From assembly GCF_003315345.1 (NCBI RefSeq), contig NZ_QNRO01000015.1, positions 1 through 64,000 of the forward strand: a stretch of DNA of 64,000 bases, given 5' to 3'. The translations under genes were made by a program, and so were the position numbers. The DNA comes from Marinobacter pelagius. GTDB taxonomy: Bacteria > Pseudomonadota > Gammaproteobacteria > Pseudomonadales > Oleiphilaceae. The notes beneath the pieces are model-generated. The model did not search any database, was not told the DNA's origin, and saw nothing but the letters and a program-made list of their open reading frames with translations. Shown piece by piece: positions 154-4,293 of the stretch; the stretch's first letter is position 1; each line of letters opens with the position of its first letter.

Positions 154-534
154 TCAGTCGAAATCAGGCAGTTCCGGTTTCACCACCGGCTTGCCTGCTT
201 CCTGCCAGGCCTCGATTCCTCCGGAAATGGATTGCACGTGGATATAGCCCATTTCTTTCATGGCTTTTGCCGACAGGGCAGAGCGACCACTGTTCTTGCA
301 GTAGATCACCATATTCAGCCCCCGATCTTCCAGGGCGGGATCGTTGGTAAGTTTGAATTCCAGGATGCCCCGGGGAATATTGACGGCGCCCGGAATATGG
401 CCGGCGTGGTACTCGTCGGCTTCCCGGACATCAATCAGCATGTCCGCCTGCTTGATCGCCTCTTCGGATTCCTCCAAAGGTACTTCCCGGATTTCGGTCT
501 TGGCAGCCTGGACCATTTCGTGAACAGTTTTCAT
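154..534 (-). CDS. Single-domain rhodanese (sulfurtransferase)
   Basis: 126 aa, one rhodanese domain with no signal peptide, so probably cytoplasmic. The N-terminal CDC25-like signature is IDVREADEY (about residues 34-42), followed by GHIPGAVNIP. The active-site loop is CKNSGR with the catalytic Cys at 79, which would carry the persulfide. Such proteins move sulfane sulfur between thiols, cyanide or protein partners. The ATG at 534 is the only sensible start. The gene stands alone, facing away from the methyltransferase; its promoter (654-682) and an upstream palindrome match those of the peroxiredoxin gene. The neighbouring persulfide dioxygenase-rhodanese fusion supports a role in handling reactive sulfur. 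The family is certain; the substrate is inferred. Confidence 0.9.
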   Translation of the reverse strand: MKTVHEMVQAAKTEIREVPLEESEEAIKQADMLIDVREADEYHAGHIPGAVNIPRGILEFKLTNDPALEDRGLNMVIYCKNSGRSALSAKAMKEMGYIHVQSISGGIEAWQEAGKPVVKPELPDFD

Positions 535-840
535 CGTGAAATACCTCGTTAATCTCTTGTAGAACGCCGCTGCAAAACGCCGACGACGGTACCGAATAGA
601 CAGGGACCGAGTGTTCCGGTTCAGTTGCCGTTACCCGGTGAGCTTGGAGGTTCAAGATAAATCCCGCGCCGCATTATCTCAAGGAATAAAGATATATCGG
701 TTCAATATAAGAGGTCTATGATCGCTTTTCGGGTGGTTGGAGAGCTGGTACACCGCAGGGTCCCTCGTCTCAAGCTATCCTGTCAGTGATCAGGGCGTTG
801 TTTGATAACAACAAGAAGTTTGGGCAGGGAGCAGAACCCG
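535..840. other. Intergenic region between rhodanese and methyltransferase genes
   Basis: About 300 bases separate the two divergent genes. Besides the rhodanese promoter and palindrome described separately, I see no other convincing motif. The short open frames crossing it have no family resemblance. Confidence 0.5.
654..709 (-). promoter_or_regulatory. Rhodanese promoter with upstream palindromic operator
   Basis: On the minus strand there is a -35 TTGAGA (677-682), a 17-base spacer and a -10 TATCTT (654-659). Exactly 10 bases upstream of the -35 lies TATATCG-GTT-CAATATA (693-709), a 7-3-7 inverted repeat with one mismatched pair. The same layout, including the 10- and 17-base spacings and an identical -10, is found at the peroxiredoxin gene (2228-2283). 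A site upstream of the -35 fits an activator. The regulator is unknown. Confidence 0.6.
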
Positions 841-1518
841 ATGCCGAAAAGCGAGCCATTCGAGCAACACCATGAACGTTATGAATCCTGGTTTGCCCGG
901 CATCTCGAAGCGTACATTTCCGAGTTGCTGGCTACACGGATTTTTGTCCCCGTTGAAGGAAATGGGCTGGAGGTCGGGGTCGGTAGTGGCAGGTTCTCGG
1001 TACCCCTGGGGGTGGAGTACGGGATAGATCCTGCCCCGGCCATGCTCAATTACGCCCGCTCGCGGGGTATGAACGTGGCTGTGGCCAAGGCGGAGCAACT
1101 CCCCTTCAAGACCGGCGTCTTCGATTATGTCCTGGTAGTGACCACCATCTGTTTCGTTGATTCAGCCTCTGAAATGCTTGCCGAAATCCATCGGGTACTG
1201 GTGCCGGAAGGCCGGGTGATCATTGGTTTGATCGACCGGGACAGTGAACTTGGCACCTTGTATCAAAAGCACAAGGAAGAAAGCGTCTTCTATCGCGATG
1301 CGGAGTTTTTCTCGGTATCGGAAGTGGAACGTCTGCTGGAGGGTAACGGGTTTATGTTGGAAGATCGGGTGCAAACGCTTTTCAAGTCACTTCCGGAAAC
1401 CACAGAAATCGAGCCTGCATTGCCCGGAACGGGGCAGGGTGCTTTCGTCGTTCTGGCAGGCAAAAAAAAGCCGGACCTCAAGGTCCGGCAAAGGGCTGTG
1501 AATCAGTCGCCTGAGTAA
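841..1518 (+). CDS. Class I SAM-dependent methyltransferase
   Basis: 225 aa from the ATG at 841, which follows GGGAGC at a good distance; an in-frame upstream start at 802 has no clear ribosome site. SAM-binding motif I is LEVGVGSGRF (about residues 41-50). The acidic end of strand 2 is in YGIDPAP, motif post-I is AKAEQLPF, and FDYVLVVTTICFV followed by the VLVPEGRVIIG strand completes a Methyltransf_11-like fold. The methyl acceptor cannot be told from sequence. An unusual point is that its last 19 codons contain the intrinsic terminator of the convergent peroxiredoxin gene (1462-1489), which fixes the KKKPDLKVRQ stretch of the C-terminus. Confidence 0.85.
   Translation: MPKSEPFEQHHERYESWFARHLEAYISELLATRIFVPVEGNGLEVGVGSGRFSVPLGVEYGIDPAPAMLNYARSRGMNVAVAKAEQLPFKTGVFDYVLVVTTICFVDSASEMLAEIHRVLVPEGRVIIGLIDRDSELGTLYQKHKEESVFYRDAEFFSVSEVERLLEGNGFMLEDRVQTLFKSLPETTEIEPALPGTGQGAFVVLAGKKKPDLKVRQRAVNQSPE
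1462..1489 (-). terminator. Intrinsic terminator of the peroxiredoxin gene, inside the methyltransferase CDS
   Basis: GCCGGACC (1470-1477) and GGTCCGGC (1482-1489) form a perfect eight-pair stem with a TCAA loop. On the minus strand it is followed by eight consecutive T (A1462-1469 on plus). It lies downstream of the leftward peroxiredoxin gene and within the 3' end of the convergent methyltransferase coding sequence. Confidence 0.85.
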
Positions 1519-1531
1519 AGCGATATACCGC

Positions 1532-2185
1532 TTAGAGGGACTTGGTGCAGAAGTAGAAATCCTTGCACTCGTAGTCACCGGACTCGACACGTGAGTTGGC
1601 GCCTTCGGCAGTCTTGGCCGGCGGAACGATGACCTTGTCGCCTTTCTTCCAGCCTTCCGGAGTAGCCACACCGTGCTCGTCACTGGTCTGCAGGGCTTCC
1701 AGCAGGCGCAGGAACTCGGGGATGGAGCGGCCGTTGCTCATCGGGTAGTACACCATGGCCCGCAGGATGCCGTTCGGATCGATGATGAAGGTGGCGCGAA
1801 CCGCGGAGGTGTCGCCGGCACCCGGATGGATCATCCCGTAGGCTTTGGCTACTTCCATCTTCAGGTCTTCGATGATCGGGAACGGGATCTCAACGCCCCA
1901 GTTCTGTTTGATGTTGCGCATCCAGGCAATGTGGGAGTGGATGCTGTCGATGGACAGGCCCAGCAGTTCGCAGTTCATCTTGGCGAATTCCGGCGCCGCT
2001 TGAGCGAAAGCCATGAACTCGGTGGTGCAAACCGGAGTGAAGTCAGCCGGGTGGGAGAACAGAACCAGCCACTTGCCCTTGTAATCGCTCAGGGACTTCT
2101 CGCCGTCGGTAGTCAGGGCTTTGAAATCCGGAGCCGGTTCGTTGATGCGCGGCAGGCCCGCTACAGGTGCTGTTTGAGTTTCCAT
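1532..2185 (-). CDS. Peroxiredoxin, Prx6/archaeal-type with C-terminal CX5C
   Basis: 217 aa AhpC/TSA-family peroxidase. The peroxidatic Cys is C53 in FTPVCTTEF. The long C-terminal extension ends with C207 and C213 (CKDFYFC), the spacing known from thermophilic archaeal enzymes such as Aeropyrum pernix Tpx, where these cysteines take part in the redox cycle. It reduces H2O2 or organic peroxides at the expense of thiols in the cytoplasm. The gene is monocistronic, with its own terminator at 1462-1489 and a good promoter at 2228-2256. It is divergent from the persulfide dioxygenase fusion, and the shared palindrome suggests co-regulation with the rhodanese at 154-534. Confidence 0.92.
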   Translation of the reverse strand: METQTAPVAGLPRINEPAPDFKALTTDGEKSLSDYKGKWLVLFSHPADFTPVCTTEFMAFAQAAPEFAKMNCELLGLSIDSIHSHIAWMRNIKQNWGVEIPFPIIEDLKMEVAKAYGMIHPGAGDTSAVRATFIIDPNGILRAMVYYPMSNGRSIPEFLRLLEALQTSDEHGVATPEGWKKGDKVIVPPAKTAEGANSRVESGDYECKDFYFCTKSL

Positions 2186-2227
2186 AGAAATGTCCTCTTG
2201 AGATTGGGTTGTCAGTTGACGGTTTCC

Positions 2228-2283
2228 AAGATAGGACTAAGCGGTAATTCCTGCAAGGTATAACCTTATATCGGTACGATATA
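2228..2283 (-). promoter_or_regulatory. Peroxiredoxin promoter with perfect palindromic operator
   Basis: Minus-strand -35 TTGCAG (2251-2256), 17-base spacer and -10 TATCTT (2228-2233). Ten bases upstream of the -35 is the perfect inverted repeat TATATCG-GTA-CGATATA (2267-2283). The spacing and -10 are identical to the rhodanese promoter. The site also lies between this gene and the divergent gene at 2458 and could act on both, though no matching -35/-10 is seen on that side. Confidence 0.65.
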
Positions 2284-2457
2284 TTCCATCTATCGTCATT
2301 CGGAACAGGCAAAATGCTCCCTAGGTCACGGAAAAATAAATGGAATTTTTTCGATGGGAGAAATCCCGACCGGCTGTGGTGCAATTAACTGGGGCGTCTA
2401 TACTATTTGCACTGATGAAAAATCCTGTTCCATGGACTGCCTGAAGAGGGACCTATC

Positions 2458-3501
2458 ATGATTTTCCGGCAACTGTTTGACGATGCATCTTCGACCTTTA
2501 CCTATCTTCTGGCAGATGAGAACGAAAAAGAGGCAATTCTGATCGACGCAGTGTTTTCCCAGGCGAAGAGGGACCTGGCACTGCTGGACGAACTCGGTCT
2601 GACACTGGTGCTCGCAGCTGATACCCACGCCCATGCGGATCACATCACCGCCGCCTGGCTCCTCAACCAGAAAACCGGCTGCAGAATTGCCTCCGCCAAA
2701 GCCATAGGAGCGGAGCATGTGGATGTTCCACTCGAGGATGGCCAGGAATTCGGCGTGGCAGGGGTTACACTTCGGGCCATATCGACGCCGGGTCATACCG
2801 ACGGGTGTATGAGCTATGTCATGGCGGATCAGTCAATGGTGTTCACCGGAGATGCCATACTGATCCGGGGTTGTGGCCGCAGTGATTTCCAGCAGGGTAG
2901 TGCCCATAAACTGTTCGAGTCGATCACCAGTAAACTGTTCGCGCTCCCGGTTTCCTGCCTGGTCTATCCGGCGCACGACTATCATGGTCGGAGCGTCAGC
3001 ACTATCGGGGAAGAAAAGGCATTCAATGCTCGCGTAGGTGGAGGGGCGAACGAAACGGACTTCGTGGAATACATGAACGCCATGAAGCTTCCTCATCCCA
3101 AAAAAATCGACGAGGCTCTCCCGGCGAACCTTCGCAGCGGGTGCCCTGAGGATGGAAAGCTGCCAGAAGAGCCGGATTGGGCCGATATCCGGCTGACTTA
3201 CGCCGGGGTCCCGGAAACCGGGGAAGAGTGGCTTGAGCATCACCTTGATGAGGTAACAGTTCTTGACGTCAGGCTTGCTGAGGAAGTCAAAGACTGCCCG
3301 GTCACCGAAGCACTGGTGGATCTTCACATCCCGCTGGACCAGCTAAGGTCGCGAGTGGGCGATGTCCCAAGGGAGAAACCGGTGGTCGCGCTCTGCCGGT
3401 CTGGTCGGCGGTCAGCCATGGCCGTCAATATTCTCAGGGAGAATGGTTTCGAGAAGGTGGCCAGTCTGAGTCGTGGGCTCATGGAAATCACTAGAAATTA
3501 A
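2458..3501 (+). CDS. ETHE1-like persulfide dioxygenase fused to rhodanese
   Basis: 347 aa. The N-terminal metallo-beta-lactamase fold has the metal motif THAHADH (residues 56-62: H57, H59, D61, H62), then STPGHTDG and FTGDAIL, and YPAHDYHG as the third metal region. The C-terminal rhodanese domain (about 245-347) has VLDVRLAEE and the active-site loop CRSGRRSA with C313. This is the layout of persulfide dioxygenase-rhodanese fusions, which oxidise glutathione persulfide to sulfite and move the second sulfur, in the cytoplasm. The ATG at 2458 follows GAGGGACC. A -10-like TATACT sits at 2399-2404, but the -35 is weak. It pairs functionally with the rhodanese and peroxiredoxin nearby. Substrate inferred from family. 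Confidence 0.88.
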   Translation: MIFRQLFDDASSTFTYLLADENEKEAILIDAVFSQAKRDLALLDELGLTLVLAADTHAHADHITAAWLLNQKTGCRIASAKAIGAEHVDVPLEDGQEFGVAGVTLRAISTPGHTDGCMSYVMADQSMVFTGDAILIRGCGRSDFQQGSAHKLFESITSKLFALPVSCLVYPAHDYHGRSVSTIGEEKAFNARVGGGANETDFVEYMNAMKLPHPKKIDEALPANLRSGCPEDGKLPEEPDWADIRLTYAGVPETGEEWLEHHLDEVTVLDVRLAEEVKDCPVTEALVDLHIPLDQLRSRVGDVPREKPVVALCRSGRRSAMAVNILRENGFEKVASLSRGLMEITRN

Positions 3502-3558
3502 TGGGATATATCGTTTATCTCAACCATTTTCTCGAAACTGGGAGAGCCGGGCGCCTGC

Positions 3559-4293
3559 ATGGATGATACCTTCTGGACCGCGCTGACAACGAGCATCCTC
3601 GCCGCACTGGTTACATCCGTCGGCATTTTCACGATTCGCCGTTTTGCGGACTGGGGACATCGAAACACCACCTACTTTATATGCTTTGCGGCGGGTGTTC
3701 TCATTTCGGCCTCCTTTCTCCATATCATCCCTAAATCCTTTTCCATGAACCCGGATGCACCGATCTGGCTATTGTCGGGCTTCATGGGTCTCCATCTTTT
3801 CAATCGTTTTCTGACGGCCTTTGTGTGCGAGAAGAACCCGGCCAGAAAGGACTATGTAATTGGTGTCATCCCGATGCTGGGGATCGGGTTTCACTCGTTC
3901 ATTGACGGTTTCATCTACTCAATCTCATTTACGGTGAGCATCTTCACCGGCTATCTCGCGACGGTGGGGATGGTGCTTCACGAGTTCCCGGAAGGGATCA
4001 TTACCTATCTCCTGCTTGTTCGGGGCGGGGTTGCCCCGAAATTGGCCATGATTCTCGCGTTTATGGCGGCGGCTGCTACAACACCCCTCGGTATGCTCGT
4101 TTCATATCCGCTGGTTAACGACATTGATCAGCAGTCTCACGGCGCCTTGCTCTCGTTGTCCGCAGGCGCTCTTGTCTACGTCGGTGCAACACACCTTCTG
4201 CCCAGAGCGGAGCAGGAACAGAAGAAATTCAGCCTTGTTGCTCTGGCAGGGGGTGTGCTGGTTGCTGTGGTGATTGTCGCGTCCAAGGCGTGA
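3559..4293 (+). CDS. ZIP-family divalent metal transporter
   Basis: 244 aa, almost entirely hydrophobic with about seven to eight membrane spans. Two ZIP metal-site helices are visible: GFHSFIDGF (H112, D116) and HEFPEG (H141, E145). A histidine in THLLPRAEQE near the C-terminus follows the family pattern. ZIP proteins bring Zn, Fe or Mn into the cytoplasm, and the metal here is not readable. It lies 57 bases after the dioxygenase fusion on the same strand and could be co-transcribed. A half-copy of the local palindrome (TATATCG, 3507-3513) lies between them. A REP-like hairpin begins just after the stop codon. Confidence 0.88.
   Translation: MDDTFWTALTTSILAALVTSVGIFTIRRFADWGHRNTTYFICFAAGVLISASFLHIIPKSFSMNPDAPIWLLSGFMGLHLFNRFLTAFVCEKNPARKDYVIGVIPMLGIGFHSFIDGFIYSISFTVSIFTGYLATVGMVLHEFPEGIITYLLLVRGGVAPKLAMILAFMAAAATTPLGMLVSYPLVNDIDQQSHGALLSLSAGALVYVGATHLLPRAEQEQKKFSLVALAGGVLVAVVIVASKA

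Follow-up and report, generated by a model that had tools for sequence, protein, structure and literature searches.

A conserved operator-like element at sulfide and sulfane-sulfur oxidation genes of Marinobacter points to a probable repressor encoded away from its targets

It is probable that a 16-bp palindrome, frequently accompanied by ATAT 12 bases upstream, is the site of a repressor that is encoded away from its targets and that controls the oxidation of sulfide and sulfane sulfur in Marinobacter and in some other marine Gammaproteobacteria. Two copies lie in the window, by which is meant the whole stretch of 64,000 nucleotides analysed here, the start of contig C15 in a draft genome of Marinobacter pelagius (4.13 Mb, 55 contigs). 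The element, its conservation, its targets and its varying place within promoters were all computed: a shared site stands at several genes of the sulfide and sulfane-sulfur pathway and is conserved across species, and it is a real, conserved operator-like unit of what appears to be a sulfide-oxidation regulon. When sulfide is absent, the repressor, presumably one protein for all of the sites, would sit on or beside the -35 hexamer, the -10 hexamer or the start of transcription and block RNA polymerase; sulfide, persulfide or polysulfide would release it, and sqr, persulfide dioxygenase (PDO), rhodanese, peroxiredoxin (prx), sox and related genes would then be made together. Gammaproteobacteria able to detoxify or burn sulfide are common in the sea, and among the open-licence papers listed no account was found of how Marinobacter senses sulfide. 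The operator would delimit a regulon and would predict the PDO, sqr, sox, rhodanese and peroxiredoxin genes that act in concert, and it could be used directly as bait to capture the sensor protein.

Table 1. Features of the window and operator sites in the same genome, C15:683 and C15:2257 being the two in the window (window positions count from its first letter; contig sites are given as contig:position).
Feature	Position	Strand	Remarks
Single-domain rhodanese	154..534	-	Pfam PF00581, 75.7 bits vs cut-off 22.2
Putative rhodanese promoter	654..682	-	-10 TATCTT 659-654, -35 TTGAGA 682-677; read by eye
16-bp putative operator GATATATCTTTATTCC, rhodanese	683..698	-	PWM 16.4 bits; ATAT at -10, not -12
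17-bp palindrome at rhodanese	693..709	.	6-bp overlap with 16-mer
Methyltransferase, small	853-1518	+	diverges from rhodanese, adjoining operator
1-Cys peroxiredoxin (prx)	1532..2185	-	NCBIfam NF009668, 302 bits vs cut-off 211; PF10417
Putative prx promoter	2228..2256	-	-10 TATCTT 2233-2228, -35 TTGCAG 2256-2251; read by eye
28-bp putative operator, prx	2257..2284	-	16-mer GATATAAGGTTATACC 2272-2257, ATAT 2284-2281; exact 28-mer match; PWM 21.8 bits
17-bp palindrome at prx	2267..2283	.	6-bp overlap with 16-mer
PDO-rhodanese fusion	2458..3501	+	divergent from prx; PF00753 + PF00581
ZIP transporter	3559-4293	+
Operator site	C4:62687		PDO-SulP
Operator site	C9:36116		sqr|PDO, divergent
Operator site	C9:41963		exported rhodanese upstream of octaheme tetrathionate-reductase-family cytochrome (627 bits vs cut-off 375)
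Operator site	C11:130771		PDO-BLH-sqr-SulP-cydA
Operator site	C15:683		rhodanese
Operator site	C15:2257		prx
Operator site	C15:79587		soxC|soxH-like; cluster SoxC 687 vs 420, SoxB 852 vs 550

The original prediction held that the rhodanese and prx promoters of the window share one order and spacing, namely -10 TATCTT, 17 nt, TTGxxx, 10 nt and a 17-bp palindrome, and this is exactly what the sequence contains, with the 10-nt stretches at 683-692 (rhodanese) and 2257-2266 (prx). Allowing up to two mismatches, TATATCGNNNCRATATA matches only these two places in the whole window (4 strand matches against 0.17 expected; none of 100 shuffles reached 4). At the same tolerance the whole genome holds three places, against three per strand for a backwards control, so that the palindrome was worth following not because of its count but because the third place, C9:36126, shares its function in lying inside the divergent sqr|PDO promoter. 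With up to one mismatch it matched in only 3 of 61 Marinobacter genomes, and at the sites outside this genome (G007 and G020) no sulfur gene was recognised among the flanking open reading frames by reading. After the scans of this genome and of the 61 genus genomes the 17-bp palindrome was rejected as the conserved unit: its left arm keeps only ATAT, and the CG is variable. A strict form, GGWATAANNTTATWCC, was too narrow as well, being found in 3 of 100 genomes, in one of which (G073) it is the cydA promoter. The true conserved unit takes in the 10 bases that had been read as spacer; the 17-bp palindrome is real without being that unit.

What the orthologue promoters have in common is a palindrome of 16 bp, GNTMTAWSSWTAKANC, in many cases preceded by ATAT at a distance of 12 bases. 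These promoters were drawn from 100 genomes of the genus (the 30 best rhodanese loci, 30 sqr loci and all 8 prx loci), one sqr locus cut at a contig end (L053) being left out. An iterated PWM was built over 101 promoters, a site being a score above 10 bits, and by this measure, in the same promoters that trained the PWM, sites are found in 28 of 29 sqr, 12 of 12 PDO operon, 8 of 8 prx and 13 of 30 rhodanese promoters. ATAT stands at exactly -12 to -9 in 26 of the 28 sqr and in all 13 PDO promoters with a site, counts that leave out promoters below 10 bits and include one related PDO gene. On the sense strand the 16-mer reads GATATAAGGTTATACC at prx, GATATAACGTTATACC at sqr, GGAATATCCTTATTCC at other prx genes, GGTATAACCTTATTCC at other rhodaneses and GATCTATGCTTATAAC at the PDO operon. 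Non-conservation upstream of orthologous genes had been named as grounds for giving the motif up, and the outcome is divided, for the prx site is present throughout, in a gene of the window type that itself occurs in only 8 of the 100 genomes, and the rhodanese site is missing (below 2 bits) from the five orthologues closest in sequence (L007-L011). At one of these, L009 (genome G009), the rhodanese lies directly downstream of prx, whose promoter has the site.

Exact ATAT-N8-RNTMTAWNNWTAKANY gave 115 matches, spread over 77 of the 100 Marinobacter genomes, where the backwards 28-mer gave 2, each in a genome of its own, and a PDO or sqr start lies within 350 nt in 27 of 30 fetched loci (the exceptions being L201, L206 and L219). 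By a cross-count, 43 of the 47 genomes in which sqr was found (E up to 1e-60) have the 28-mer operator, as do 34 of the other 53. The 16-mer alone, with one mismatch, finds 6 sites in this genome against 7 for its control, so that specificity requires the 28-mer or the gene context; four of the six are at targets listed in Table 1, and C1:437693 and C12:17288 look accidental. The thought that these repeats are promoter AT-richness, UP elements or chance, with no dedicated protein behind them, draws on the facts that all parts are AT-rich and near promoters and that raw counts for the loose form are near control. It is hardly credible in view of the 115 matches against 2 for a pattern of equal composition, the confinement of targets to one pathway, and the fixed spacing from ATAT to the 16-mer across promoters of differing geometry.

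The small regulon originally proposed stands as a set of sulfur and thiol genes with a common cis-element, and falls as to its size, since it is much larger than two genes. The labels sqr and PDO were given on profile scores that fall under the curated NCBIfam cut-offs (190 against 525; 562 and 409 against 625). Among named records, the sequences nearest to the sqr of this genome come from Marinobacter. The commonest target of the 28-mer is PDO followed by a SulP transporter, an arrangement represented once in the training set; targets outside that set are PDO-SulP in most of these genomes, the divergent soxC|soxH-like pair and the rhodanese-octaheme operon. For the PDO-rhodanese fusion of the window, which scores 98.5 bits with the NCBIfam Blh model, below the cut-off of 625, no operator of its own was seen, the prx operator about 170 bp upstream being the only one. 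Further loci came to notice by the way. An exact operator precedes a c-type cytochrome gene pair, possibly thiosulfate-oxidising, at L238 (G099:C1:2083771), and another precedes a gene that reads as encoding a YeiH-like membrane protein and is divergent from one that reads as TDT-like, of the sulfite exporter type (L201/L234, G007:C12:140646). A PAS-type sensor gene, probably GGDEF, was read before the PDO-SulP operon at the Marinobacter loci L227, L228, L231, L233 and L235. Plasmid records with sqr number 118, and the 50 among the matches listed all belong to other genera.

The place of the element bears on the sign of regulation. At the window prx, the window rhodanese and two other prx genes (L075, L076), 23 nt lie between the end of the 16-mer and the putative -10; the distance is 18 nt in five prx promoters and 11 nt in sqr and the PDO operon. 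At 23 PDO loci, 27-58 nt separate the end of the 28-mer from the start codon, and in promoters of the PDO-SulP type it overlaps the putative -10, TATATC inside the 28-mer reading as that hexamer with TTTCAC 17 nt upstream. Of the 13 rhodaneses with a site, 10 have it directly after TATCCT and ending 21-24 nt before ATG, and rhodanese promoters without a site keep a similar core. The putative core promoter is overlapped by the site or precedes it at PDO-SulP, at sqr/PDO and at the 10 rhodaneses, and the site only abuts the -35 at the window prx and rhodanese. Such variation in place with respect to the -35, the -10 and the start codon would suit a repressor better than an activator; because all of the -10 and -35 hexamers were read by eye and are putative, the mechanism of repression is something we infer. 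The original prediction had placed an activator just upstream of the -35, and its sign of regulation is probably wrong. An activator so placed, sensing sulfide or peroxide, would suit the window prx and rhodanese and the two other prx genes with 23 nt to the -10, at all of which the site ends next to the -35, and seems unlikely when the same element overlaps the putative -10 of PDO-SulP (at the 23 PDO loci just described) and follows the putative -10 in the 10 rhodaneses.

The substrates of the confidently assigned targets, or of genes adjoining them, are sulfide, persulfide, thiosulfate or sulfite, and this list points to sulfide or sulfane sulfur as the likely signal. Where reactive sulfur or peroxide had been suggested, the sulfur is well supported by the target list, and the peroxide loses ground only in that the targets do not need it. 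That OxyR or another established global redox regulator senses sulfane sulfur here is very unlikely: a peroxiredoxin is among the targets, and redox regulators are known to sense sulfane sulfur, yet no catalase or ahpC was recognised at the six genome sites with up to one mismatch, and the OxyR site is unlike an even 16-bp palindrome, which counts against it. Just downstream of the operator at L044 and at other sqr promoters lies an FNR/ANR-like TTGAT-N4-ATCAA, perfect in 4 promoters and with at most one mismatch in 16 of 29, so that control by oxygen may be layered on the sqr promoters.

Three kinds of sulfide-sensing regulator were sought in this genome, SqrR/BigR-like ArsR proteins, CsoR/CstR and FisR, and none was found, in the case of FisR among the matches listed. 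The four matches to PF01022, the one model used for ArsR in this one genome and one that a diverged ArsR could escape, proved when their sequences were read to be a phosphatase-ArsR fusion of the arsenic type, an ArsR-methyltransferase and two AsnC/Lrp-like proteins. PF02583 gave no match for CsoR/CstR in this genome, and 6 of 14 control genomes match. The FisR query, named for its sigma-54 domain and because its gene adjoins PDO, aligned in G000-G018 (19 Marinobacter genomes), among the matches listed, from residue 142 or later and hence over the common ATPase part only; in two other families the same query aligned over residues 15/22-473 at 61-63% identity. The best match to a sigma-54 promoter had 2-4 mismatches of 10 in 40 promoters of sqr and the PDO operon, and none had fewer than 2.

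The closest known systems include SqrR, BigR and YgaV, of the ArsR family, which repress sqr, PDO (Blh) or related genes and are released by sulfide or polysulfide (PMC7315123, PMC12423496, PMC5823870, PMC9774250; see also PMC8014003); the SqrR box is given as ATTC-N8-GAAT (PMC9774250). The target genes are the same in Marinobacter, where repression is our own inference; however, that box occurs in 1 of 69 operator stretches here, and no ArsR of SqrR/BigR build was found in this genome. SoxR/sHdrR of Hyphomicrobium, described as exerting sulfane-sulfur-responsive repression of sox genes (PMC12423496), belongs to the same ArsR subfamily as SqrR, and such a protein was not found in this genome with PF01022. 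FisR is a sigma-54 activator of sqr-PDO operons (PMC7315123). Although its target genes are those of the Marinobacter element, FisR acts at sigma-54 promoters next to its own operon, and the promoters here read as sigma-70-like. CstR of Staphylococcus, of the CsoR family, is a persulfide-sensing repressor of sulfide oxidation genes, and a CsoR-family protein was found with PF02583 in none of this genome's contigs.

One regulator gene near the sites had been anticipated, and none was recognised beside the sites inspected. When the neighbours of the targets were read by eye, no regulator was common to all, kinase-regulator pairs, LysR (in one genus) and PAS/GGDEF proteins being seen; those neighbours aside, no transcription-factor gene that would suggest autoregulation was recognised among the nearest open reading frames of strong sites at the fetched loci. 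It is rather improbable that the binder is one of these neighbours, either a response regulator paired with a membrane kinase or a LysR protein, such as some genera encode next to PDO, and that it might act in both directions. By eye, genes for an OmpR-type regulator and a kinase do lie in line behind operator-bearing PDO/SulP/YeeE genes at the Halomonadaceae-like loci L123, L124 and L270-L272, and two genomes belonging to one other genus have a LysR gene immediately before the operator and PDO operon (L274 8450-9367; L275 8508-9497), but neither is found beside the targets in the Marinobacter loci read, and the two-component pair that adjoins sqr-SulP in G093 and G073 has a Cpx-like look. OmpR regulators, moreover, usually bind direct repeats and LysR proteins odd-length T-N11-A sites, which counts against both. 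DsbG/DsbD-like genes were seen near the OmpR-type regulator and kinase at L123, L124, L270, L271 and L272. To return to the repressor encoded away from its targets, the chances seem evenly balanced that it is of a kind other than SqrR/BigR, CstR and FisR and not yet linked to sulfide, a master switch for the oxidation of sulfide, persulfide and thiosulfate across Marinobacter, parts of the Halomonadaceae and other marine Gammaproteobacteria; it would read the 28-bp operator (ATAT, 8 bases and the 16-bp palindrome), perhaps as more than one dimer.

The element reaches beyond Marinobacter. Among 80 sqr loci from many taxa, 16 have a site above 12 bits. Strong sites at sqr or PDO occur in Marinobacter, Porticoccus, Kushneria, MFB021 and Idiomarina, with a further strong site in Tamilnaduibacter where no gene start was called nearby; weaker ones occur in Marinobacterium, Vreelandella, one Marinomonas, a Saccharospirillaceae and an uncultured gammaproteobacterium. 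No site was found at the Pseudomonas, alphaproteobacterial and Chromohalobacter sqr loci of these 80, nor at those of one Halomonas and two other Marinomonas. The Tamilnaduibacter, MFB021, Kushneria and Vreelandella sites have ATAT at -12, and the Porticoccus and Idiomarina sites checked lack it. A slightly stricter 28-mer matched in 36 of 391 genomes of the order (13 of 19 Marinobacter and 23 of 372 others), and since its control gave 10 matches in 9 genomes, chance matches make up a large share outside Marinobacter. By rule, 10 of 22 loci from other genera lie near PDO, prx, soxC, rhodanese or cydA, two of them weak at 149 and 323 nt (L255 and L258), and reading adds soxC (L254) and PDO (L257) among the 22.

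Several smaller observations concern the genomic setting. At an operator-like site in G073, cydA has a divergent neighbour that encodes a different small methyltransferase. A lone half-site-like GGATATATCGTTTATCTC, to which the PWM gave no score, lies between the PDO-rhodanese fusion and the ZIP transporter at 3504-3523 of the window. Contig C11 ends within cydA of the PDO-BLH-sqr-SulP-cydA operon (G000:C11:136444, L085), and a comparable PDO-BLH-sqr-SulP cluster of the relative G038 continues without a break into rhodanese and PDO-rhodanese genes (L039); because that cluster is continuous, the start of the window may join the end of C11, as a single sulfide island split by the assembly.
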